From NCBI RefSeq assembly GCF_036549215.1, contig NZ_CP144371.1, forward strand, positions 1-64,000: a stretch of DNA of 64,000 nucleotides, in the 5' to 3' direction. Below the pieces are notes generated by a model, which ran no database searches, was not told the origin of the DNA, and was given only the letters and a program-made list of their open reading frames with translations. Position 1 is the first letter of the stretch. Every line of letters begins with the position of its first letter. A program made the position numbers and the translations under genes. Below are positions 6,072 to 52,976 of this stretch, in pieces. This stretch comes from Candidatus Blochmannia sp. SNP. Lineage in GTDB: Bacteria; Pseudomonadota; Gammaproteobacteria; Enterobacterales; Enterobacteriaceae.

Positions 6072-6500
6072 TTAAATATTAAATTTAATACAACTAATTT
6101 GTCGCCATAAGTCACGTTTAGCTTTAATATTACATTTTAATATTGATAATGATGGAGTATTCAAACACATGCCATGAAAATTTTTTGATACTTCAGTGCC
6201 AATCCACCAACAGTGACAAGAAAATCCTGATGGAATAATTAAGTGGTTAATTTGACTATTAGTTAATGCGCATACTTCTCTAGAGCTCAGCTGAATAGCG
6301 CGTATAACATCCTTAATAAAAGGGTCATTTAAAGATATTGGAAAATCTGACGATATTAATAATAAACGAAGACATACCCATAATTTAATCTGATTATTAT
6401 TATTTAAAACTATGGGATATCGTAATTTCCACGGTACAATACCTAATTTCCATAGAACAGAATTATTTTTTTTTTGTTTATCTTTGTTATTAAGACACAT
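6072..6500 (-). CDS. holD: DNA polymerase III psi subunit
   Basis: Psi binds chi (HolC) and links the clamp-loader complex to single-strand DNA-binding protein. The protein is divergent, but the family pattern is clear along its length: WKLGIVPWKLRYPIVL near residues 17-32 matches the conserved 'LGI..W.LR.P..L' block of E. coli HolD; DPFIKDVIRAIQLS, LIIPSGFSCHCWWIGTE and the end block LWRQIS also match. Length is 142 residues (E. coli 137). The N-terminal 11 residues, rich in Lys and Asn, are not conserved. They contain an in-frame run of ten A (6466-6475), a slippage-prone tract. E. coli neighbours such as rimI are absent. The assignment rests on motif alignment by eye. Confidence 0.85.
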   Translation of the reverse strand: MCLNNKDKQKKNNSVLWKLGIVPWKLRYPIVLNNNNQIKLWVCLRLLLISSDFPISLNDPFIKDVIRAIQLSSREVCALTNSQINHLIIPSGFSCHCWWIGTEVSKNFHGMCLNTPSLSILKCNIKAKRDLWRQISCIKFNI

Positions 6501-6601
6501 ACTTACTCATATTCAATGTATATAGCATTACATATAACCAATATAAATAATTAATACTAAACAGTAATGATATGTTTAACTAATTTAATTTTTATATAAT
6601 C

Positions 6602-8350
6602 TTATCGGATATATATATTTTCAGAAAAATTTTTTTTATTATGATACGTACTACTACGTAAAGACGTGCTGCCTAATAATTTCATATTTATTGGTTTATT
6701 TAAAATTCGTGCATGAGACAACTGAGTTAATATTTTATTATTAGATAGTCCTTTATTTAGTTCAATAATAGAATGAAAAGAAAATAATCTAATATTACCT
6801 ATTCCATAACAACGAATATTATCAATTTTATTTGAAAGCATCCCAATAATATGACGGATTTTAACTCCATCGTTACGTCCTACTGATATATGATAAATAT
6901 CCATATTGTCAGAAGAAATTTTCTTAAATTTACACCTAACTTTCAAAGTTCTATTATCAATGCGACAGTTATTTTTATAATTATTTTTCATACGTATTTT
7001 ATAATCTGATTTATTTTTAATAACTGGATCTGGAGGCAATACTAATGGACGATTTCCTTGTGCTATTTTTAATAAAACGGCTGCTAAATTTTCTATTGTC
7101 AAACCTTTTTTAGGTTTTATTTGCGGTAATAATGATCGATATATATCTAAATCATTATTAGTATTTAATTGACATTCTATTTTATTGGCAAATTTAGCCA
7201 AACGGCAAGCAAGTAAAGTTTTAACAGTAGGATGTCTAACTTCTGTAATATTTAAATTTATTTTACGTTCAATATTACGTAATATACGAAATTCTTTATA
7301 TTCTACAAATAATAAAGATTTTCCGACGCGTCCTGCTCTACCAGTTCTTCCTATACGATGTATATAGGCATCAGAATTTATTGGTATATCATAATTTATT
7401 ACTAAACTAATACGATGAACATCTAATCCACGAGCAGCAACATCAGTAGCTATAAGAATTTGTAAACTTCCATGTCTTAATCGATTTAGCGTTTGATGCC
7501 GTATTGCTTGATTCATATCTCCGTTTAAAGCCGCACTGTTATAACCAAATTTCTCTAATATGTTAGAGATTTCCAACGTTGCACATTTAGTACGAACAAA
7601 AACAATGGCTGCTTCAAAATCTTCTGTTTCTAAAAACCGCATTAATGCTTCATGTTTAGCTATTCCGCGCACTAACCAATAACTTTGTTTAATATCAGCA
7701 CACATATTCGTATCAGTATGGATATACACTTCTTTTGGATTATTCATAAATCTATAACTTATGCGGCGAATACCCATAGGTAAAGTAGCAGAAAATAATG
7801 CTGTTTGGTGTTTAATTGGAATATTTTTAATGATATGTTCAATGTCTTCAATAAATCCCATACGTAACATCTCATCAGCTTCATCTATCACTAAAGTTTT
7901 TAATTTAGATAAATCAGCAGTACCACGATTTAAATGATCTATTAATCTACCTGGAGTGCTGACAATAATATGAGGCCTCTTATTTAAAGCACTCAATTGA
8001 ATGTCATAGCTTTGTCCTCCACATAAAGTCACAATATTTATTTTATTCATATATCTTGTAAAATCAGAACATACTCTTCCAATTTGGATCGCTAATTCTC
8101 GAGTAGGTGTCACAATTAAGCCTTGAGAAAAAGAATCATTAATATCGACATTATGCAGTAGGGGTAATACAAATGCCGCAGTTTTTCCACTACCTGTATG
8201 CGCCATTCCCAACACATCATATCCGGCCAACAAATATGGAATACACTGAGTTTGGATAGGTAAAGGTTTTTCATATCCGATATCATGTAAGACATTAATT
8301 ATATGATGATTTAACCCTAAATCCATAAAAGAATCTGCGGTTTTTGACAT
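6602..8350 (-). CDS. deaD: ATP-dependent DEAD-box RNA helicase DeaD/CsdA
   Basis: Unwinds RNA during ribosome assembly and mRNA decay, especially in the cold. Motifs in order: Q motif (GYEKPLPIQTQ, 25-34), Walker A AHTGSGKT (50-57), PTRELA (82-87), DEAD (156-159), SAT (187-189), and motif VI HRIGRTGRAGR (331-341). A C-terminal RNA-binding domain of the DbpA type follows (ISVGRNDGVKIRHIIG, then GNIRLFSFHSIIEL). Length is 582 residues (E. coli 629); the shortening is at the basic tail. In E. coli, nlpI lies between pnp and deaD. Here the corresponding 666-bp spacer is empty. Confidence 0.96.
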   Translation of the reverse strand: MSKTADSFMDLGLNHHIINVLHDIGYEKPLPIQTQCIPYLLAGYDVLGMAHTGSGKTAAFVLPLLHNVDINDSFSQGLIVTPTRELAIQIGRVCSDFTRYMNKINIVTLCGGQSYDIQLSALNKRPHIIVSTPGRLIDHLNRGTADLSKLKTLVIDEADEMLRMGFIEDIEHIIKNIPIKHQTALFSATLPMGIRRISYRFMNNPKEVYIHTDTNMCADIKQSYWLVRGIAKHEALMRFLETEDFEAAIVFVRTKCATLEISNILEKFGYNSAALNGDMNQAIRHQTLNRLRHGSLQILIATDVAARGLDVHRISLVINYDIPINSDAYIHRIGRTGRAGRVGKSLLFVEYKEFRILRNIERKINLNITEVRHPTVKTLLACRLAKFANKIECQLNTNNDLDIYRSLLPQIKPKKGLTIENLAAVLLKIAQGNRPLVLPPDPVIKNKSDYKIRMKNNYKNNCRIDNRTLKVRCKFKKISSDNMDIYHISVGRNDGVKIRHIIGMLSNKIDNIRCYGIGNIRLFSFHSIIELNKGLSNNKILTQLSHARILNKPINMKLLGSTSLRSSTYHNKKNFSENIYIR

Positions 8351-9016
8351 CTGTAATTACTCCATATTTAATAAACCAATTAACTATATAAGTGTAATAG
8401 AAAAATTTTTATAAAAACAATATTCCATAATGTAGAAATACGTGTGTATATGTATTAAGATTATTCAAAGAATAATACTACTGTTTTATATATATGAATT
8501 TCAGCAGTTTATGATTAAAAATTGTATAATATTTGTGAAAACTACATTAAAAACATAAATATTGTCTTTACGAAAAACAAGAATATTGATTCTCAAAATG
8601 CTACTAAAGGATCACCCGCATACAATAATAATTTGTATACTGTTTGTTGTATAATAACATGCACAACAAATAAGATTCCAATTTTTATTTACTTCCTGAA
8701 TATCTATACTTATTTTGTAATGCACAAATATGCCATTGCGTATCTATTCATTTGAATCTCTATTTATGAAATAATAATTATAAATTTATTCCTAAATTTC
8801 TTCCTACAAATATATTATTAAACTATGTATTTTCTATTTATATTAAATAATTTCAAATATAATTAAATTACTGTAAGTCGTAATATAATACGTTTCAGAT
8901 AGGTAATAAATAAATAAATAATTATCAATCTATATAAATAACTACAAACCATATATTATATGTATATGCACACATATAACAACCAAATAACTATTATCAT
9001 TATAGTATATAATATT
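8351..9016. other. Spacer between pnp and deaD at the expected position of nlpI
   Basis: A/T-rich DNA of 666 bp. E. coli carries nlpI here, but no lipoprotein signal or TPR-like frame can be read on the minus strand. A 77-codon plus-strand frame (8522-8755) begins with TTG, has no Shine-Dalgarno and resembles nothing I know. A hairpin with 8-bp arms (TTTGTTGT at 8643-8650, ACAACAAA at 8663-8670) lies in the deaD leader. The spacer probably holds a decayed nlpI and the deaD promoter. Confidence 0.5.
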
Positions 9017-29141: not shown

Positions 29142-32100
29142 TTAAAAATCAAATTTATATAATAAATCAAGCGCTTGATTACTTCCAGATGTAACTTCTA
29201 AATACAATTGTGAACATAAACAATAACGTACAGTTATTGTCGTCAACAAATCAAAAATACTTATTCCATATTTAATTTGTAAACCAGGAGCTATGTATCC
29301 ACTTATTGCAACTAATGGCGTGGTTCCAATGATATCTTGAGTATTTAATGTCAAATCTTGCACACCAAATATTTTTCCTATTTTACTAATAAATTGCTCA
29401 CTATTTTTGACGCTTGCTCCAATTAAAAAAGATGTTATTATACTGGCATCCGTATTAAAAAGTATAAGATTTCTATTATCACCTAATAAATAAGATACGA
29501 TTTCTTGTGGAGAAAATAATGAAGTAGTGGAGAAAACTTCTAGTTTTGGTTGATCAAAAACACCAGTAATTCGTATACCAACTATATTTCTATTTCTAAT
29601 ATCAGATGGGTTACAAATTGCTTCAATATCAAGATACGGTTGATTTATTGATCCAGAAAATAGTAGGTGTCCCTTTTTTATCATCAAATTTTGTCCATAT
29701 ACTTGAAAATAACCGGAAAGCATATCAATGTGCCCTGTTAAAAGCAAGTTACTTCCATTATATCCAGTTTCTAAATTACCCCTCAATTTCGTGCGTAAAC
29801 CTAATCCATTGAAATTCACATCATTACCGAGAGACACAGTAACGTTAGAATAAATAGCAGTACATAAATTTTTAGAATTATCTAAAATAGGTTCAAAATT
29901 ATCATCCAATAAAATTTCTTCTGAAGACACTCTAACTATATTTTTCGAACGTTCTTTAACTTCAATATAAGCCCAAGGAATTTCAACATTACCTCGTAAA
30001 TGAACTTTTTCTGCAGTGACCATACAAGTAACACTAGGAGACATTTTCATCTTTATTTTTGGAGAGATACAAAAACTAATTTGGTTTCCCCATATTCTGA
30101 AAAATGCACGCATATCACGAATAGAATCAAAATTAACAATATCGCCACTTAAATTTAACTTGCTGTCATTATCCGTGTACATTGTTCCATTTAATGTGGC
30201 ATAATCCCCAAAAAATCTTATGAACACTTGAGCATTTCTTACAAAAAATGGTGTATCAGGCTTATTAATATTAAAGTCGTGTAATTGAGCAGAACCATAA
30301 ATTTTTAGATGATGGGTATATCCATGAAAACGAATATTCAAATTTAATAATCCATTTACAGGTTCTTTCAATGAAATCAATGAATGACAAAAAGGCAATA
30401 ATGAGATATTTTTAATCTGTATATTTCCTGTTATTTTAGATGTATTGTGTAATTCGGTTATTTTGAATGATCCATGATTTTGATCACAATTACCTATATT
30501 TACAAACCATTCGCAATATGAAGTAACTTGCATTAATACAATTTTTACAGTAACTTTATTTATTCTGATTGAATCTATTTCTATACCTTCGATAGAAGAT
30601 TTAATACTACATTGTTTTCCTGAAAGTAAAATTGTACCCTTAGGTAATCGTTCTCCTACTATCCAATAGCAATTGGAACAATATACATGAACAGTACGTA
30701 TATTTATTAATTCTGGCAATAATATTTTTAAAGAAACTACATTAAAACTTTTAAGTAAACCGTCTATTTTATTTAATATATTTGTCTTTAAAACATTAGA
30801 AATAGGAATTGTATAATTAATAATTTCCCAATAATGTGAATCAAAAATCATTTTTCGTGTTAAATGTTGATAGATAATAATAATATCTTGCATTAATTTC
30901 CATGTTCCTGTTGGAGTTATAATACTCGTTTTACTAACTCTGCTATGCCAAGTTTTATTAAAAAGATCCAGATTACCGCAAAGTTTTATTTCTCCAGACA
31001 ACATGTCGTCACAGGATATTAGATTTAAATAATGTTTCTGAATATTGCCTTGTCCTTTCGCTATTATTTGGCGTAACGACAAAAATCCACACCGTATTTT
31101 ATCTGCTTGTAAAAAAAATTTACTTTGCATGATATCATCACGATAAATATCACTATTTATTACTATCTTATCAATGTTAATATTCTTATCTCTCCAATTT
31201 AGGGAAGATATATCAATATTCGATAATAATCTAAGATATCTAACAGGTCCATATAATTTAAATTTTCCATATACACTACCACTTAATCCAGGTACTATTG
31301 CGTTGCAATCTGGGGCTGCAAGCGTAGCATTTAAAACAGAACCTTTTTTTAAGTCTAAGGCTCCCTGTATTTTTAATGCATTAGTTCCCCATTTTATTAA
31401 TAATTCCGGTATTTTCCATTCACCGAATGAATTACTGTATAATGCTCCTGTACATGAAATATTATTATTTTCTATATTTCCATTAAGATTTAAATCAGAC
31501 ACTCTAAGATCCCAAACATTAGAATATAAACGCCCTTGAGTAACAATATTACCTGATAATTTAATTGGTTTTTTAAACCACTTTTTTTGAAAAAAACTAA
31601 CTTTATTTAATAGAAACACACTATTCCAACTAATCATATTAGTCCAATTAATAACCCCTTGCATATTCAAACATCCATCTGACATTATTGCTCTTAATTT
31701 AGAAATGGTACAGCCGTTAGTATCCCCTTGAGCATTCATAACTACATGTGCTGCTGAAAATTTCATACTACTTAATTGTAATGTTACTTGAATATAATAA
31801 CTTCGTATTTCACCATTTAAACATAAATTAATATCTTCTATTAAATAATCATCCGTTCCTAAAAAAGAAAGTGGTATTTTTCTGCCAACTACAGATATGC
31901 CTATAGGTATACCAAATTGCATCATATTAATTTTTAATAATACATTTATTGTAGAAACAGTACCTAAAAAATCACAACGAAGACATATGTCATTGTATAA
32001 TTCTCCAGTGAGAATTAATTTTATTTTACTTGTACTCTGACTTTTTGTTGTTTCAGGAGAGTTATTGATGCGGGCAACATTATACACAGTATAATCAGCT

Positions 32101-32987
32101 GTAATATTTATTGGATAATATTCCCTAAATGTTATATTTCCTATTGCATTAAGATAACCACATGGTAATTTAATATTTAATTTTAAATTTGCGGCCTGAT
32201 CATGTAAATATGTCCGAAAATAAAAATGATTAATAGTCCAATAATTATGATAATTATCAAAAATACAAACATCCTCTCCTTCTATATCCTTTAGAATTAA
32301 ATTTACAGGAACCTTAAAAGAAGACAATGCCATTAATAATTTACTAGACAATGATTTAAGTAAACACTTTATATTCCATTGGTTGCTATATTTATACATG
32401 TCTATGATATTAGTTTTTATATTTGACATATTTACATTAGAAACATTTAAAACTACTCCTGTGATACATATAGGTAAAACTGTTAGTAAATTATTTTGAA
32501 ATGTTAATCCAGTATCTAATGTTTTTAATTTAAATATAATATTATTTGAAATAATATGAGTATTATGAAATACCATTTTTTTTAGTATTACAGGAAACGG
32601 AAAAGAAAAAATTTTTTCTATTTTTGTTTTTTTATATCTTTTACTTTCTTGATTTTTCGTATCTGTTTTTTTTATTTTTATAAAAACATTTTTCAAAGAA
32701 AGATGATCAATATATATCTGTTTATTCCATATGTATTTTAGATTTAATAAAATATTACATTGATCAACATCAATTATACCTATCGGTGTTTTATAGACTA
32801 TATGAGTTATATTAAAATTACCCCAAGTACCGGAAACAGAATCAAATGTTAACCCGGGGATACAATAGGCAATTCCCGTAAGAGTTACGTATGTTCCAGT
32901 ATTAGTACCTAACAAAAACATAAAAACTCCACATATTATTGATATCCATAACAAGAAAATCAAATAGATTTTCTTTATAAAAATCAT
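29142..32987 (-). CDS. tamB: Translocation and assembly module subunit TamB
   Basis: A large inner-membrane-anchored periplasmic protein of the TAM complex. It is thought to carry phospholipids and help outer-membrane protein assembly together with TamA. Its 1281 residues compare with 1259 in E. coli. An N-terminal membrane anchor lies at about 7-29, a long beta-rich AsmA-like body follows, and a conserved DUF490 C-terminus contains LLTGHIDMLSGYFQVYGQ and ends in a beta-strand (LYKFDF). The ATG overlaps the tamA stop by four bases (ATGA), showing translational coupling. The full-length frame shows that selection still acts on it. Confidence 0.94.
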   Translation of the reverse strand: MIFIKKIYLIFLLWISIICGVFMFLLGTNTGTYVTLTGIAYCIPGLTFDSVSGTWGNFNITHIVYKTPIGIIDVDQCNILLNLKYIWNKQIYIDHLSLKNVFIKIKKTDTKNQESKRYKKTKIEKIFSFPFPVILKKMVFHNTHIISNNIIFKLKTLDTGLTFQNNLLTVLPICITGVVLNVSNVNMSNIKTNIIDMYKYSNQWNIKCLLKSLSSKLLMALSSFKVPVNLILKDIEGEDVCIFDNYHNYWTINHFYFRTYLHDQAANLKLNIKLPCGYLNAIGNITFREYYPINITADYTVYNVARINNSPETTKSQSTSKIKLILTGELYNDICLRCDFLGTVSTINVLLKINMMQFGIPIGISVVGRKIPLSFLGTDDYLIEDINLCLNGEIRSYYIQVTLQLSSMKFSAAHVVMNAQGDTNGCTISKLRAIMSDGCLNMQGVINWTNMISWNSVFLLNKVSFFQKKWFKKPIKLSGNIVTQGRLYSNVWDLRVSDLNLNGNIENNNISCTGALYSNSFGEWKIPELLIKWGTNALKIQGALDLKKGSVLNATLAAPDCNAIVPGLSGSVYGKFKLYGPVRYLRLLSNIDISSLNWRDKNINIDKIVINSDIYRDDIMQSKFFLQADKIRCGFLSLRQIIAKGQGNIQKHYLNLISCDDMLSGEIKLCGNLDLFNKTWHSRVSKTSIITPTGTWKLMQDIIIIYQHLTRKMIFDSHYWEIINYTIPISNVLKTNILNKIDGLLKSFNVVSLKILLPELINIRTVHVYCSNCYWIVGERLPKGTILLSGKQCSIKSSIEGIEIDSIRINKVTVKIVLMQVTSYCEWFVNIGNCDQNHGSFKITELHNTSKITGNIQIKNISLLPFCHSLISLKEPVNGLLNLNIRFHGYTHHLKIYGSAQLHDFNINKPDTPFFVRNAQVFIRFFGDYATLNGTMYTDNDSKLNLSGDIVNFDSIRDMRAFFRIWGNQISFCISPKIKMKMSPSVTCMVTAEKVHLRGNVEIPWAYIEVKERSKNIVRVSSEEILLDDNFEPILDNSKNLCTAIYSNVTVSLGNDVNFNGLGLRTKLRGNLETGYNGSNLLLTGHIDMLSGYFQVYGQNLMIKKGHLLFSGSINQPYLDIEAICNPSDIRNRNIVGIRITGVFDQPKLEVFSTTSLFSPQEIVSYLLGDNRNLILFNTDASIITSFLIGASVKNSEQFISKIGKIFGVQDLTLNTQDIIGTTPLVAISGYIAPGLQIKYGISIFDLLTTITVRYCLCSQLYLEVTSGSNQALDLLYKFDF

Positions 32988-34739
32988 AAATCTGGTCCTA
33001 AATTAACATATAAATATAAAAACTGATGATCTGTTTTCCCTCTATGTATTAGCGGAGTTGCTAGATCTAGTTTTATAAGGCCTACCGGAAATTGCCAGCG
33101 TACTCCAATACCCATACCAGATCTGAAATTATTCCATTTAATATTATTACTAATCTCTCCTATGTCCACAAAAATAACTCCCCACCATTTACTAATCATA
33201 TTATATTGGTATTCAAAGGTAGTAGTGATTAATTTAGTAGCAACTCTTGTATAAGATTCAGAGTTGTCACAAGGATCTAAATATTTATATCCACGAATCC
33301 CACTATTTGTATTAGAAAAAAAACGCAACATTGAATTAATAAATGAGAAATTATTAGTATTTATCCAGCTTAAATTCCCACGAACTAAAACACGATGTTT
33401 TTTTAATAACGTTCGAATCCAAATATTTTGAGCCTGCACAGCAACAAAATTAATATCTGATTTCCAAAAATTGTTAGATATATTAATCGAATAGCGCTGA
33501 CTATCCCCCCAATGCGGGATTACGTCACCACGCTTACGAACACGATATATACTTATTCCTGGATAAATTAATATTATATTTTTAGTAATATGATTGTTAG
33601 CATAATGATTAAGATGCCAATGTATATTAATTGCGCGGTTCCACTTGTGGGAACAATTCCAATAACGAGCCATATTTATAGTTATAATACTAGACCGAAT
33701 ATTACATGTATCTTCATGTATTAACCCTCCCTGTAATAAATAATATTGTTCTAATGGGTTACAAAGAAGTGGAATTTTATAACTTAAATCAATAACTTGT
33801 TCTGATGTAGATAAACTAAAATTATTTTCTAAACTATGCCCATATGCATTAATCCACGGTTTTTTCCAAATTATTTTAGTGCGTGGACCTGTTTCCATAC
33901 TATAACCAGATCCAGTTTCAAAACTATTTTTGGCACAAGGATAAAAAAAAATATCTAATATTAATTTTTTTTTTTGTGGACAACGCGTATAATCTGAAGA
34001 AATTGATACTGATTCAAACCAATTAGTAGAAGAAAATCGGCGATTTAATTCCATAACGGAAGCTGCATTGTAGTATTCTCCTGAATGTATATTAGATATA
34101 TTTTTTAAATAATCTTCTTTAATCTGACTCCCATGAAATTTAATTTTTTCAAAAAAATAACGTTGTCCGCTATAAAAATCTATATTCCAAATACTTCGAC
34201 AAAGTGAAGGTATAACAATAAGCTGATTGTTTTGAAATGTAGCATCAAAATACCCTTTTAATAAAGCCAAATTATAAAGTTTATTTTTAAATTGTTCATA
34301 ATCACTATGTTTTAATCTTGTTCCAACAAAAGATTTCGCATCTTTTATCATTTTCTGATAATCATGATCTTTTTCCCCATCTCCATGTATAATAATATTT
34401 ACCTCAGTAACCATAATTGGAGATCCAGGTTCAATTTTAATAACTAGTAGATCAGATTGTTTATTACAAGATTTAAATGGAGAAAAAATTAGCGTTGGAT
34501 CATAATAACCTAATGGACGCAACCCAGCTCTAACTGCACTATCTATTTTTTTTTAAATCTAAATCTACATACTTGCAGTTAGTATTAATATCAGATAATT
34601 TCTTGCGTACATTATAATTTAATTCACTATCTAATCCTTCTATTATTATATTAACATCACTATTACATATTAACGGTATGAAAAAATAAACTATTAAATA
34701 TGATCTTACCATCATATATTTTTTAAGCTCCTTGAACAT
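32984..34739 (-). CDS. tamA: Outer-membrane TAM subunit TamA, frameshifted at a poly(A) tract
   Basis: An Omp85-family outer-membrane barrel with N-terminal POTRA domains, partner of TamB. The 5' part (66 codons from 34739) has a signal-like start (RSYLIVYFFIPLICNS) and the first POTRA strand, then stops at a TAG (34539-34541). The remaining 512 codons read in another frame, with LRPLGYYDP, GERY-like SGQRYFFEKIKFHGSQI, ETGSGYSMETGPR, and the Omp85 signature SGIRGYKYLD. The junction is nine A in the mRNA (plus 34546-34554). With one A fewer, the frame runs through as DLKKIDSAVRAGLRPLGYY, matching E. coli TamA. Apart from this one base the gene is full length (about 580 residues against 577). 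It is probably either read through by slippage or newly broken. Confidence 0.88.
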
Positions 34740-45193: not shown

Positions 45194-46501
45194 TTAACTT
45201 GCAGCAACATATGTTTTTTTTACTTGTGAGGAATCTAACGGTTTTTTTTGTGATTTTATGAAATAAGAACGTAAACCTTTATACAAAGCATTAGCTATTT
45301 TTTCTTGATAAAGATTACTAATGAGAAGATACTCTTCTTTTATATTACTAATAAATCCAGTTTCTACTAAAATAGATGGAATATCGGGAGATCGCAATAC
45401 AGCAAAACTAGAATACTCAGGTGTATTTTTATGTAAGGTAGTAATATTTTTTAATTGATGTAATACATGCACCGCAATATCGTATCCTACTCGTTTAGCA
45501 TAACCAAACTGTAAATCCAAAACTACATGGCTAAAATATGGATCATTGCAATAACTAGTTAGTATATCTCCTAATCCTCCTAATAGCTCTGAATGTTTTT
45601 CACTGCATTGTAACAAATGTATCATTTCGCTTTTAGCACGACGCTCAGATAGCACCCAAACTGACGCTCCTCTAACATTAGTATTTAAAGCAGAATCCGC
45701 ATGAATAGAAATTAAAACATTTGCTCCTCTTTTTCGCGCCAAATTAGAACGTTCCATAACCGATAAAAAATAGTCTCCATCTCGGATCATTACGGCTTTA
45801 AAACTTGGATCCAAATCCAATAACATTTTTAGTTTTTTAGCTATGCTAATCGTAATATTTTTTTCACATATCCCACCATGTCGTCCCATAGCTCCTGGAT
45901 CTTGTCCTCCATGTCCGGCATCGATTGCTACAATAATCGGAGACAATACTTGTTTGGGATTTTGATTTTTTTTAAATTGTGTATCTATTATTTTTTTTTG
46001 GTGATTTATTACGTTATTTACATGTGCGGGGGTTTTACGAACCATAATAGGTGGCATCTCATGAAGATTTATATCATCAGTTACAGTAAATGTTTTCTTT
46101 TTCAAAATTGTTAATATAAGACGATAATTTTCTTTTATTTGCTTTTGTGTTACTGTTCCTATATTTGAAGGACAAGTTAAATCTAATACTATACGTATAT
46201 TTTGATGATTAATAGATACGTTTGTTCGAATACATCTAACTAAATTAGCACCGTTAAAATTTATTGGAAATATATCTTTTTCAAATTTGGATGCTGTTAG
46301 AAGATCTATCACAATTCTTTCTGGATTGTGCAAAGAAAATATCATATACACGGGGACAATAGCACAATCTAGCATTACCGTAGATTGATTTTTATTATTT
46401 GTAACCGAGATTGCACTAAGAGTTGATGCTATTATAGGTTCTACACATAAATATTTTGACAAGATCATTATTACAAAAACTATTTCATATTTCAACTTCA
46501 T
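45194..46501 (-). CDS. amiB: N-acetylmuramoyl-L-alanine amidase AmiB
   Basis: A periplasmic zinc amidase that cleaves septal peptidoglycan during cell separation. I chose the ATG at 46499-46501 (435 residues), which overlaps the tsaE stop as ATGA and has GGAA upstream; a TTG five codons earlier is less likely. An N-terminal signal (KYEIVFVIMILSKYLCV) is followed by an AMIN domain. The catalytic Amidase_3 domain has the zinc ligands in DAGHGGQDPGA and LISIHADSA, and the glutamate in ILVETGFISN. The ancestral order tsaE-amiB is kept. Confidence 0.94.
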   Translation of the reverse strand: MKLKYEIVFVIMILSKYLCVEPIIASTLSAISVTNNKNQSTVMLDCAIVPVYMIFSLHNPERIVIDLLTASKFEKDIFPINFNGANLVRCIRTNVSINHQNIRIVLDLTCPSNIGTVTQKQIKENYRLILTILKKKTFTVTDDINLHEMPPIMVRKTPAHVNNVINHQKKIIDTQFKKNQNPKQVLSPIIVAIDAGHGGQDPGAMGRHGGICEKNITISIAKKLKMLLDLDPSFKAVMIRDGDYFLSVMERSNLARKRGANVLISIHADSALNTNVRGASVWVLSERRAKSEMIHLLQCSEKHSELLGGLGDILTSYCNDPYFSHVVLDLQFGYAKRVGYDIAVHVLHQLKNITTLHKNTPEYSSFAVLRSPDIPSILVETGFISNIKEEYLLISNLYQEKIANALYKGLRSYFIKSQKKPLDSSQVKKTYVAAS

Positions 46502-46992
46502 ACATGCAATTTCCAATATGCTAATAAATCATCCAGCATTCTATGGCCTAAATTACTAAAAGATTTTATAACTACTTTTCTGGATTTTTCACAATCATGA
46601 TAATTCATTGTCACTGAAATATCTTCTGTTGGTAAAATTTCCATTCCTTGTTTTGGCCATTCTATTAAACATACAGTCTGTCCATCAAAATAGTCTCTAA
46701 TTCCCATATATTCAAGTTCTTCTGAAGAAGTTAATCGATAAAAATCAAAATGACACACATTCCAATGTGTTAGAATATAAGATTCAATCAAAGTATAAGT
46801 TGGACTATTTATATGTCCAACATGTCCTAATGCATGTAAAAATCCTTTACACAAAACAGATTTTCCTGATCCCACATAACCATTTAAATAAATCACACAG
46901 CTTCGAATACAAACAGAAGCCAATATAGCACCTAATAGCAAGGTTTTTGATTCATCAGACAACATCAATACACATTTTTTCATCTTTAACAT
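46498..46992 (-). CDS. tsaE: tRNA threonylcarbamoyladenosine biosynthesis ATPase TsaE
   Basis: An ATPase of the TsaBDE complex that makes t6A37 in ANN-reading tRNAs. The P-loop is GYVGSGKS (38-45). INSPTYTLIESY, HFDFYRL, GIRDYFDGQTVCLIEWP follow and are diagnostic. It has 164 residues (E. coli 153). It overlaps amiB by four bases, so the two are coupled. nnr (yjeF), which precedes it in E. coli, is missing upstream. Confidence 0.95.
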   Translation of the reverse strand: MLKMKKCVLMLSDESKTLLLGAILASVCIRSCVIYLNGYVGSGKSVLCKGFLHALGHVGHINSPTYTLIESYILTHWNVCHFDFYRLTSSEELEYMGIRDYFDGQTVCLIEWPKQGMEILPTEDISVTMNYHDCEKSRKVVIKSFSNLGHRMLDDLLAYWKLHV

Positions 46993-48657: not shown

Positions 48658-49536
48658 ATGTTAGAAAAAATACAAGTTCTACTGCAGTACTTATTACCAA
48701 AATATTGGATTACTTATTTATTAGGATTAGGGGCATCATGGAAAGGTGGATGGGTAACGCATTATGCTATTCAATTATTTATTCGTATCTATAAAATAGA
48801 CATGAAAGAGTTCGATAAACCTAATCCATCCAATTATACAACGTTTAATGAGTTTTTCACTCGAAAATTGCGTAATAATTCTCGGCCTATAGATACCAAT
48901 TTATCTACATTAGTTATCCCGGCTGATGGAATTATTACTCAAATAGGAAAAATAAATCAAAAAAATACCTTCCAAATAAAAGGAATTCCTTATCATCTAG
49001 ATGGATTACTAGCAGGCCATGATAACATCATTGACTATTTTAGTGATGGGAACTTCGTGATCATTTATATACCTCCGCAAAATTGTCATCGTGTCTACAT
49101 GCCTTGTACAGGCACACTGCGTGAGGTGTTGTATATACCTGGCGATTTATTTTCAGTACATCCAAAAATTACAAAAAATATACCTAATATATTTTCTCGC
49201 AATGAAAGAGTCATCTGTTTATTTGAAACAGATTTTGGTTATATGGCTCAAATTTTAGTTGGAACTATAATAGTAGGAAGCATTGAAACTACATGGTTAG
49301 GAACAATTACCCCGCCCCGAGAAGGTGTCGTTAAACATTGGCGCTACCCAAATACTTCAAATATTAAGGATGCAATTATATTACAAAAAGGACATGAAAT
49401 GGGATTATTTAAATTAGGATCTACTGTTATTAATTTATTTGATAACAAAAAGGTTATTTTAAACAGTCTATTACAACCATACGATATTGCTCGTATTGGA
49501 ATGCCTTTAGCACAAGGATGTAATCAAGAGAAATAA
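48658..49536 (+). CDS. psd: Phosphatidylserine decarboxylase proenzyme
   Basis: Makes phosphatidylethanolamine from phosphatidylserine at the inner membrane. It is a self-cleaving pyruvoyl enzyme. The LGST motif near residue 257 ([11 protein letters not shown]) is the cleavage site between Gly and Ser. [29 protein letters not shown] and GSIETTWLG are conserved. It has 292 residues (E. coli 322); only the poorly conserved C-terminal tail is missing. mscM follows after 11 bp, as in E. coli, so they form an operon. Confidence 0.96.
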
Positions 49537-49547
49537 TCACATATATT

Positions 49548-52500
49548 ATGCATCATCTCACATCATGCAATAATATTGTATATAATGTGCTTTCTTTTCA
49601 AAAGAAAGCCATATTTCTTAAATATTTTTCTTTATCAATATTTATTGTAGGATGTTTGTATTCACTGATAATATTTTCTTATGATTTTTCAGAAGAACAC
49701 GAAATTAAAAAATATTTACAACATATACAACAACAAGAACATATTGATATTCATCAAAAATCCATTATAGAAAATTTACAATCTACTTTATATTTTATTT
49801 CTGAAAGAAAATCTTCTAATATTAAAATTAAAGAATATCAAAAAATAATAGATGATTTTCCATATATAACCCTTCAATTACGTAAAGAATATAATGATAT
49901 CTCTAATCAAAGTATTAATATTAATAAAAATCTTTCTGCCCATGAACTGAAACAGAAAACATTCCAAATTAATAATCAATTAACAAATTTATCAAAACAA
50001 TTGAAACAAGAAGAAGATTATATATCTTCAATTAACGAATCATTAATATTATTACCAGAACAACAAACTGTGGCTAAGAATATATTAAATAATTTAGCAC
50101 AACAACAAATATTATCTGTTGTAAATATAAATACTCCGATAGAACAATCCAAATTTACTGCATTACAAGCAGAACAGGCAGCTAGGCAATTAAAAATAGC
50201 CGAACTCGAACTCGCTCAATTAAGCGCCAATAATCGTAAAGAATTATCCCAACTTCGAGCAACATTATTGAAAAAAAAATACGAATGTGTAAATAATGAA
50301 CTACAAATATTAAAAAACCAATTAAACTATTTATGTAAAAGTGAAATAAAACAACCTATTGAATATAATGAAAAAATACTATCAGAACAGAATAGAACAT
50401 TACCAAAGTCCATTATAAAGCAGATACAAATCAATCAGGATCTTTCAGCTATTTTAAAACAACAAGTACATCATATAAACAGCATCACATCTAAAAAACA
50501 AGAAGTTACATCATATACATTACAAGTACGTCAAACTTTTGCTAATTTACTTGAACAAGCACAGTGGTTAGATAAATCTCCAGCTCTTGGAGAAACACTA
50601 CGTTCTCAAGTTTCAAAGTTACCAAAAATGCCTAAATCTCAACAGTTAGATCATGATATGGCTCAACTAAGAGCCAAACGTCTTCAATGTGAAAACCAAT
50701 TGAACAAATTAATGTTAATATCATCACAAAGTAAACAAGACGATGGATCGTTATTAACATTACCACAAAAAAATATTCTTGAAAAAAAAATAACTATACA
50801 ACGTAATCTTATTACTGCATTATTAAATAATTATGATATTCAAATCCTTGAATTAACAAAGTTAAAAATTTCTTATGAACAACTTAAAGAAGCATTACAA
50901 GATGTACAAAAAGCTACACATCGTTATTTATTTTGGGTAGCTGATGTGCACCCAATTACTATATCCTACCCATTAGAAATTTATCATGATTTATATCGGT
51001 TATTAATTACAAACAAATTTGATCATCAAATAATACATATTTTAAAAATGATTTTTTCTGATCAAAAAACCCTAATGTTAATAATATTGTGTTTCATTGC
51101 ATCATTTGGATTTCATTTTACTGCATATCGTCATTATAAAGAATTTTTAAAACGATCTAGTAAAAAAATAGGTAAAGTAAATCAAGATAATTTTTTGCTT
51201 ACTTTGTATAATATATGGTACTCAATGTTAATAGCATTACCAATCCCAATTTTGTGGGCAATCATAGGATATAGTTTAAATCACACTTGGTTATACCCTA
51301 TTTCTGTAGAAATTAGTGATGAAATTAATGCTACAACTTTTATACTATGGGTATTTATAGTAGGCGTTTATTTTGCGTCCCCAAAAGGATTGTTCATTAT
51401 CCATTTTGGTTGGCCAAAAAAAAGAGTTCAACAAGTTTTTTCACATCATTATATCTGGGCTATTATAACAGTTGTTTTTTTAATAATGATACTAACTATA
51501 TTTAATAACTATAACGATAGAGAGTTTTCTAATACTTTGGGACGATTATGCTTTATTTTACTATGTATTTGTTTAACATTTATTACCAATAATCTAAAAT
51601 GTTCTGGATTACCTTTGTATTTAAATAAATATGATTCTTCTGATAACATCATTAATCGTTTTTTGTGGAATATTATGATATGTGCGCCAATAATAGCGGC
51701 GATTTCTTGTATTTTAGGCTATTTATTCGCTGCTCAGACATTATTAGCGCGGTTAGAAACATCATTATTTATTTGGATTATATTATTAATCGTATACCAT
51801 ATTATTCGTAGATGGACATCTATTCAGCGACGTCGCATTGCTTTTGAACGAGCTAAACAAAGACGAGCTACGCAATTACATCTAAGAACATATAATAATG
51901 AATCAAATGCTTATCAATCACAAACTAACAAATTAGTATCTAATGATAAAATCAATAAAAAGATTTTAGATTTAGATACTATTAGTACACAGTCATTACA
52001 ACTAATACGATCTATTATTACTCTTATTGCCCTGTTGTTAACGACTTTATTATGGTCAGAATTGTATTCTGCATTCTCTTTTTTAGAAAATATTACATTA
52101 TGGGATGTGACTTCTACTATAAAAGGCGTAGATAATATTCAACCTATCACATTGAATTCATTTATTATTTCTGTCTTAGTAATTGTTATTACCACAAAAA
52201 CAGTAAGAAATTTACCAGCATTTCTAGAACTCACTTTTTTACAACATTTAGACCTTACGCCAGGAACAGGATATGCTATTACTACGTTAACTAAATATAT
52301 ATTGATGTTTCTTGGAGGAATAATAGGATGTTCATTGATAGGTATAGAATGGACTAAAATACAATGGTTAGTGGCAGCATTAGGCGTAGGATTAGGTTTT
52401 GGATTACAAGAAATTTTTGCTAATTTCATCTCTGGCTTAATAATATTATTTGAAAAACCTATTCGTATTGGTGATACTGTAACTATTAGTAATCTTACTG

Positions 52501-52976
52501 GTAATATTACTCGAATTAATACTCGTGCAACTATCATTACTGATTGGAATCATAAAGAAATTATTGTTCCAAACAAAGAATTTATTACAAAACAATTCAT
52601 TAATTGGTCTTTATCGGATACATTAACACGCGTAGTACTACGCGTGCCAGCTCCATTAAAAACAGATGCTAAAAAGATAGTACAAATCTTATTACAAATA
52701 GTAAAAAATTCTTCTCTTGCTTTAAATACTCCACCTCCAGAAGTATATTTAGTAGATTTACAACAGGGGCTACCTGTATTTGAAATACGAATACACATAT
52801 CAGATATAAAGCTTCGTATGCCCTTATGTCATCAAATACATATGTTGATCATAGAATATTGCCAAAATAATGGATTAAAACTACCATATGTACCTATATA
52901 TGCTTATAACAATCAGTTATTTGTTAATAATTTTGATTCTAATTATCCTAATGCAAATTATTATACAACAAAATAG
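49548..52976 (+). CDS. mscM: Miniconductance mechanosensitive channel MscM (YjeP)
   Basis: A large MscS-family channel of the inner membrane that opens on hypo-osmotic stress. It has 1142 residues (E. coli 1107). The first 40 residues contain a membrane segment. A long periplasmic, coiled-coil region rich in Gln, Lys and Leu runs to about residue 480. About ten hydrophobic segments follow. The MscS domain is clear: pore-lining helix with AALGVGLGFGLQEIFANFISGLIILFE-like pattern near 945-970, then PIRIGDTVTI, and WNHKEIIVPNKEFI. The frame is intact over 3.4 kb. It converges on efp. Confidence 0.93.
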   Translation: MHHLTSCNNIVYNVLSFQKKAIFLKYFSLSIFIVGCLYSLIIFSYDFSEEHEIKKYLQHIQQQEHIDIHQKSIIENLQSTLYFISERKSSNIKIKEYQKIIDDFPYITLQLRKEYNDISNQSININKNLSAHELKQKTFQINNQLTNLSKQLKQEEDYISSINESLILLPEQQTVAKNILNNLAQQQILSVVNINTPIEQSKFTALQAEQAARQLKIAELELAQLSANNRKELSQLRATLLKKKYECVNNELQILKNQLNYLCKSEIKQPIEYNEKILSEQNRTLPKSIIKQIQINQDLSAILKQQVHHINSITSKKQEVTSYTLQVRQTFANLLEQAQWLDKSPALGETLRSQVSKLPKMPKSQQLDHDMAQLRAKRLQCENQLNKLMLISSQSKQDDGSLLTLPQKNILEKKITIQRNLITALLNNYDIQILELTKLKISYEQLKEALQDVQKATHRYLFWVADVHPITISYPLEIYHDLYRLLITNKFDHQIIHILKMIFSDQKTLMLIILCFIASFGFHFTAYRHYKEFLKRSSKKIGKVNQDNFLLTLYNIWYSMLIALPIPILWAIIGYSLNHTWLYPISVEISDEINATTFILWVFIVGVYFASPKGLFIIHFGWPKKRVQQVFSHHYIWAIITVVFLIMILTIFNNYNDREFSNTLGRLCFILLCICLTFITNNLKCSGLPLYLNKYDSSDNIINRFLWNIMICAPIIAAISCILGYLFAAQTLLARLETSLFIWIILLIVYHIIRRWTSIQRRRIAFERAKQRRATQLHLRTYNNESNAYQSQTNKLVSNDKINKKILDLDTISTQSLQLIRSIITLIALLLTTLLWSELYSAFSFLENITLWDVTSTIKGVDNIQPITLNSFIISVLVIVITTKTVRNLPAFLELTFLQHLDLTPGTGYAITTLTKYILMFLGGIIGCSLIGIEWTKIQWLVAALGVGLGFGLQEIFANFISGLIILFEKPIRIGDTVTISNLTGNITRINTRATIITDWNHKEIIVPNKEFITKQFINWSLSDTLTRVVLRVPAPLKTDAKKIVQILLQIVKNSSLALNTPPPEVYLVDLQQGLPVFEIRIHISDIKLRMPLCHQIHMLIIEYCQNNGLKLPYVPIYAYNNQLFVNNFDSNYPNANYYTTK

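Follow-up and report, generated by a model that had tools for sequence, protein, structure and literature searches.

Frameshifted genes that may be corrected during transcription have been described in Blochmannia by Williams and Wernegreen (2010, PMC3017870). Their report gives 4, 4, and 8 genes with frameshifts in poly(A/T) for three whole Blochmannia genomes, which hold 114, 134, and 153 long coding A-runs. It lists ytfM (tamA) among the candidates, with frameshifts in B. pennsylvanicus, B. floridanus, and B. vafer that are possibly corrected by slippage, and places the indel of B. pennsylvanicus at another location than those of B. floridanus and B. vafer. For a histidine gene of B. pennsylvanicus, the rescue of a frameshift by transcriptional slippage was reported by Tamas et al. 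(2008), as cited in a review (PMC5009743), which puts the share of corrected transcripts at 12–50% for this ant-symbiont gene and cell-wall genes of aphid symbionts combined. The tssM gene of Citrobacter rodentium (PMC4256274), likened here by its description, is a case from a different gene and host in which a gene interrupted in the DNA is made whole by slippage in the transcript.

The slippage-rescue phenomenon, which the sequence-only reading of the locus described here had invoked as known in the genus, is therefore published for Blochmannia, including ytfM, and it is the phase of the break in the genome denoted G000 that looks new. The window, a 64-kb stretch of this genome, contains tamA in two pieces on the minus strand. 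The tract at which they meet, site 1 (34546–34554), is a run of nine A in the tamA mRNA, and the plus strand accordingly carries nine T, with an A on both flanks. The N-terminal piece (34539–34739) starts with an ATG at 34739, with alternative ATGs at 34715 and 34712. Its start resembles a signal peptide by eye, it includes the beginning of the mature protein, and it ends with ...VDLDLKKNR*, the first base of the stop codon (34541–34539) being five past the A run. The remainder of tamA (32984–34552), which encodes a POTRA domain and the Omp85 barrel, opens within the tract (KKIDSAVRAGLRPLGYY...) and continues for 522 codons to the stop at 32984–32986, or for 512 codons if counted from the TTG at 34522. 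The two frames are offset by one base across site 1, which corresponds to one A in excess or two A short. Because the downstream frame is closed by a TAA at the run's 5′ edge and the upstream frame ends at 34541–34539, they can be joined only at site 1 or a few bases after it. The sequence-only reading was thus correct in that the frame stops immediately after a run of nine A, that eight or eleven A would restore it, and that the 512-codon remainder is free of lesions. Searched against its own genome, the 522-residue frame gave a single match without internal stops. The second long tract of the gene, site 2 (33965–33975, minus strand), is a run of eleven A in the tamA mRNA and is in frame in G000. 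A megablast search of phage records gave no matches, and a search of genome contigs found one Pantoea relative only.

The 522-residue piece matches the Pfam families Omp85 (5.8e-17) and POTRA (7.6e-10). Its match to the NCBIfam TamA model NF047950 covers model positions 53–569 and scores 582.4 bits, compared with a cut-off of 625 for the whole protein; the score is that of this piece alone, unjoined to the N-terminal piece, so that model positions 1–52 are missing. No Pfam match was obtained with the 59 residues that 34562–34739 encode on their own. The adjoining tamB (29142–32987, minus strand, 1281 residues) scores 893.6 bits with the NCBIfam TamB model, above the cut-off of 825. It is full length, and its start overlaps the tamA stop in an ATGA, both as previously claimed. 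A POTRA domain, an Omp85 barrel, and a neighboring tamB, the features of the TamA family, are therefore all present. The ATGA overlap is visible in the analyzed stretches of 11 of 13 genomes but not in that of G012, and the stretch of G003 ends before it.

Fourteen genomes of the genus were searched, of which 13 contain tamA and the same 13 contain a full-length tamB, in every case without internal stops. The exception is G006, in which neither gene was found in the searches or among the open frames of at least 80 codons between cysQ and ppa. In the corresponding region (G006:C1:94000-112000), tamA and tamB are missing and the neighbors cysQ and ppa, identified by eye, are kept. TAM has been lost as a pair in G006. 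Of the 13 genomes with tamA, 11 have a copy interrupted at a poly(A) tract, and two different tracts are affected. Eight genomes have site 1 out of frame, as A9 in G000, T4A9 in G010, and A10 in G013, G004, G009, G001, G008, and G011. In G007, with A10 preceded by a G, and in G003, with A7, site 1 is in frame, and there is no run of at least nine at this position in G002, G012, and G005. Site 2 lies approximately 195 codons beyond site 1, and the genomes out of frame there are G011, G007, G002, and G012, so that G011 is broken at both sites. At site 2 of G013, the run is interrupted and shortened to A8. The gene is whole only in G003 and in G005, for which intactness is read from a 598-residue open frame with one alignment anchor unplaced. 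The series thus comprises two copies that are in frame, ten that are broken at one tract, and one broken at both. Breaks beyond the two sites were not seen in the 13 genomes compared, and a mutual exclusion of the sites was not significant (one-sided 0.12). A single-indel break in an A run of at least nine, with the rest of the gene open, persists across species at site 1. With 11 of 13 genomes affected at two tracts, tamA has a frame break that is inherited and has recurred. The gene is the one for which ytfM frameshifts were reported (PMC3017870), and there are likewise two places of breakage (here site 1 in G004, and site 2 in G002 and G012); the differences are that the A9 of G000 is in the other phase and that 13 genomes are tallied here instead of three.

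The breaks are confined to a narrow context. In a survey of 149 genomes of the family, mostly one per genus and including two of Blochmannia, 111 gave a match to tamA. Outside Blochmannia, 106 of the 109 matched genomes have a single open tamA frame of 578–716 residues; the exceptions are G041, a fragmented genome of 49% completeness, G129, whose match contains three TGA, and G052, with a weak partial match. The tamA match of G129, a small genome, is otherwise open, as if TGA encoded a residue. Within the family sample, recurrent tamA breaking is particular to Blochmannia. For comparison within the window, 45 ORFs of at least 90 residues were taken as genes and followed over the 13 genomes, and tamA is the only one with frame breaks at poly(A) runs. 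The 44 other genes contain 94 A-runs of at least nine, all in open frames, which led us to drop general indel noise of the assemblies as an explanation. Of the 572 gene copies compared, 554 passed an automatic test and two, both in G005, had no match. Another 16 copies, for which no ORF fitted, and 11 short ones were inspected and had no break in the matched part; five of the inspected copies run off the end of the stretch, and in the G002 copy of the ORF at 6602–8356 the match extends over just 473 of 582 residues. Among A-runs of at least nine, 12 of 21 are broken in tamA and 0 of 94 elsewhere, a comparison in which the tamA runs are longer and shared ancestry is ignored; for runs of at least ten, again with shared ancestry ignored, the counts are 9 of 17 and 0 of 22. 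The seven A-runs of at least nine found in tamB over the 13 genomes are never broken. Eight other apparent frame changes were discarded as spurious, originating from two ORFs picked in G004 that are antisense to rpsF and rplU (names assigned by eye). The longest A-run of G000 in the 44 other genes is an A10 at codon 9 of the ORF at 6072–6506.

A second gene of the genus, hisH, is split at an A11 that is one base short in ten of 14 genomes and is in frame in the other four. In G000, it is located outside the window (G000:C1:355870-356447). We take hisH to be the histidine gene of the ant symbiont for which slippage rescue was described. The tamA gene shares with that case a single poly(A) break, an open remainder, and occurrence in many species. 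It differs in that all ten split hisH copies have the same A11, whereas the run in tamA varies (A9, T4A9, and A10) and the break is found at either of two sites.

The sequence-only reading had explained the break in G000 as a one-base expansion of a run of eight A. The tract comparison among relatives that it proposed as a check speaks against this, because the tract is A10 in six relatives and T4A9 in one, and all seven are out of frame. An alignment with the in-frame G003 gives an in-frame length of 11 base equivalents at site 1, and an alignment with E. coli TamA presumably gives 11 as well. The effective length is 10 in the seven other broken genomes, one base longer than the 9 of G000. 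The expansion was therefore dropped, and two one-base contractions most likely account for the tract of G000, judging from these tract lengths; an eight-A ancestor is possible, but it would need a larger jump. On a tree of tamB, in which the branch joining nine genomes has a support of 84/85 and nearby branches have higher values, the states of site 1 require at least two changes, either one loss with a regain in G007 or two losses.

Beyond the break, tamA evolves under purifying selection. In the 36 pairs of a nine-genome clade, dN/dS is 0.094–0.247 between the two sites (172–173 codons) and 0.175–0.367 after site 2 (301–304 codons); the range for tamB in this clade is 0.227–0.404. The N-terminal piece gives 0.145–0.647, a range that carries little information because of the short length of 40 codons. 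Downstream of the break, the two tamA pieces have accumulated 24 silent and 15 replacement changes on the G000 branch. This is no more replacement-rich than the sister branches of G010 (13 and 14) and G013 (26 and 19), in a count in which only the G000 changes also had to agree with outgroups, and tamB on the G000 branch (52 and 65) is more replacement-rich than the tamA pieces. A neutrally evolving sequence of 475 codons is expected to acquire approximately 11 stops at 0.10 changes per site, and in neutral simulations it was open in 5 of 2000 runs at 0.05 changes per site and in 0 of 2000 at 0.10. Codon AAG occurs in at least one of the nine genomes in 7 of 21 all-lysine columns of the tamA pieces and in 15 of 37 of tamB; the run itself, two or three pure columns, says little in this respect. 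The low dN/dS together with the open frames disfavors an old loss of the gene and favors rescue by slippage. Selection reportedly keeps ancient homopolymer frameshifts in Blochmannia, with expression maybe lowered, an argument ascribed to Wernegreen, Kauppinen and Degnan (2010, 'Slip into something more functional').

Based on the distribution of the breaks and the selection on the sequence beyond them, we infer that tamA of G000 is probably an inherited gene that depends on slippage of RNA polymerase. A one-base deletion in an in-frame, A11-equivalent tract would have happened either once, in an ancestor common to nine of the 13 genomes, or separately in two ancestors. On the A run, RNA polymerase would slip, so that a fraction of the mRNAs has a corrected number of A and yields full TamA, and selection on this protein would have kept both halves of the gene. 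In the lineage of G000, a further A would have been lost, from A10 to A9, after which the insertion of a single A would no longer restore the frame. Whole TamA would then require an insertion of two A, giving an A11 mRNA, or a deletion of one, giving an A8 mRNA. Most G000 transcripts would retain A9 and yield a short fragment of up to 66 residues, and a minority, chiefly A11, would yield whole TamA, at a level lower than in the sister genomes and above zero. Ribosomes that finish tamA may feed tamB through the ATGA, and the break may therefore lower the expression of both genes. The earlier suggestion that the gene may be functional despite its break in the DNA is thus supported by the open remainder and the purifying selection, but it is weakened by a phase that defeats the usual one-A slip. 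A further, tentative reading, which we regard as rather unlikely, is that selection keeps the out-of-frame state because it throttles TamA and also, by way of the ATGA overlap, TamB, so that tract length would be a heritable setting of TAM dose. In G007, one tract is in frame and the other falls out, and under a throttle the step in G000 would turn the dose down further.

The direction of the breaks bears on how efficient the rescue would be. Eleven of the 12 broken tamA tracts and all ten broken hisH tracts are one base short and need one extra A; tamA of G000 alone needs one fewer or two more. If the five to seven break events, hisH included, were independent, the probability of such one-sidedness arising by chance would be 0.03–0.008. 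Either breaks that insertion can rescue become fixed or the DNA is biased towards deletion, and a bias would look alike. In the published counts for Buchnera transcripts, 151 of 157 insertions and only 16 of 57 deletions fall within homopolymer runs, and 80% of the insertions are single nucleotides. The same study counts against rescue, since transcription errors that restore the frame were not detected in it. For E. coli RNA polymerase, zero deletion product is reported on the poly(A) runs examined (PMC6260861). Since slippage is biased towards insertion, the phase of G000 is the hard one to rescue, and its tamA is predicted from the tract to be the worst rescued of the broken ones. A rescue by insertion of two A is possible but should be weaker, since most insertions are single. 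Neither a phase rule nor a genome of opposite phase was found in the literature examined, a weak absence, as the most relevant earlier studies are not covered by it.

The same directional argument raises the alternative that the A10 ancestor was rescued and that, after the poorly rescuable step to A9, TamA is now being lost in the G000 lineage. The solitary phase of G000, which no broken hisH tract shares, and the predominance of single insertions on A/T runs would agree with such a loss, and the missing tamA and tamB of G006 show that a loss of TAM can occur. Against it, the G000 branch has neither an excess of replacements nor stops, with the limitation that a very recent step leaves no trace, and runs of nine A or T are reviewed as able to gain up to six extra nucleotides (PMC5009743), so that an insertion of two is possible. 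We consider this ongoing loss unlikely. Of the earlier proposal that tamA is newly lost, the frame break itself is improbable as the recent event, and the final step from A10 to A9 could still be one.

A dependence on polymerase slippage is also preferred to a change of frame by the ribosome on the A run, programmed or incidental. A-rich heptamers are slippery for ribosomes, and a −1 shift would restore 11 of the 12 broken tamA tracts, several of which lie just before a TAG. However, G000 would need a +1 shift, opposite in sense to the other 11. The 90 nucleotides after site 1 fold no better than shuffled sequences, with z-scores of 0.77 in G000, 1.55 in G004, and 1.17 in the in-frame G003, in a test limited to folds free of pseudoknots, and no Shine-Dalgarno-like stretch was seen by eye just upstream. 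A ribosomal shift is therefore less likely than polymerase slippage, and we regard it as improbable.

An error of sequencing or assembly that hides a true A10, the length seen in some relatives, or an in-frame tract appears more improbable still. Homopolymer lengths are error-prone, and the published length of what is probably the same genome is 783,876 bases compared with 783,877 here, a difference of one base somewhere. Nevertheless, that genome was reported to have been sequenced with Illumina at more than 5000x coverage, and other long runs of G000 within the window lie in open frames, including the A11 of tamA and A9 runs in the genes at 45194–46528 and 49524–52976. Even a true A10 would leave the gene out of frame, as it is in the seven relatives. 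The closed frame in 11 of 13 genomes might suggest that tamA is a pseudogene wherever it is broken, with TamB working alone. This is hardly credible, because both downstream pieces have dN/dS values far below 1 in each of the 36 pairs, stops would be expected in neutral sequence, and G006 lacks tamB as well as tamA.

A 2025 paper on probably the same genome read frameshift fragments, hisH among them, as non-functional remnants (PMC12779916); a term search of its main text found no mention of the TAM genes. The breaks of hisH and tamA are common to many species, which cautions against calling such fragments dead. The protein sequence of tamA is clearly still selected despite the break. If the yield of slippage depends on its direction, the tamA series would predict the dose of TamA from DNA alone.
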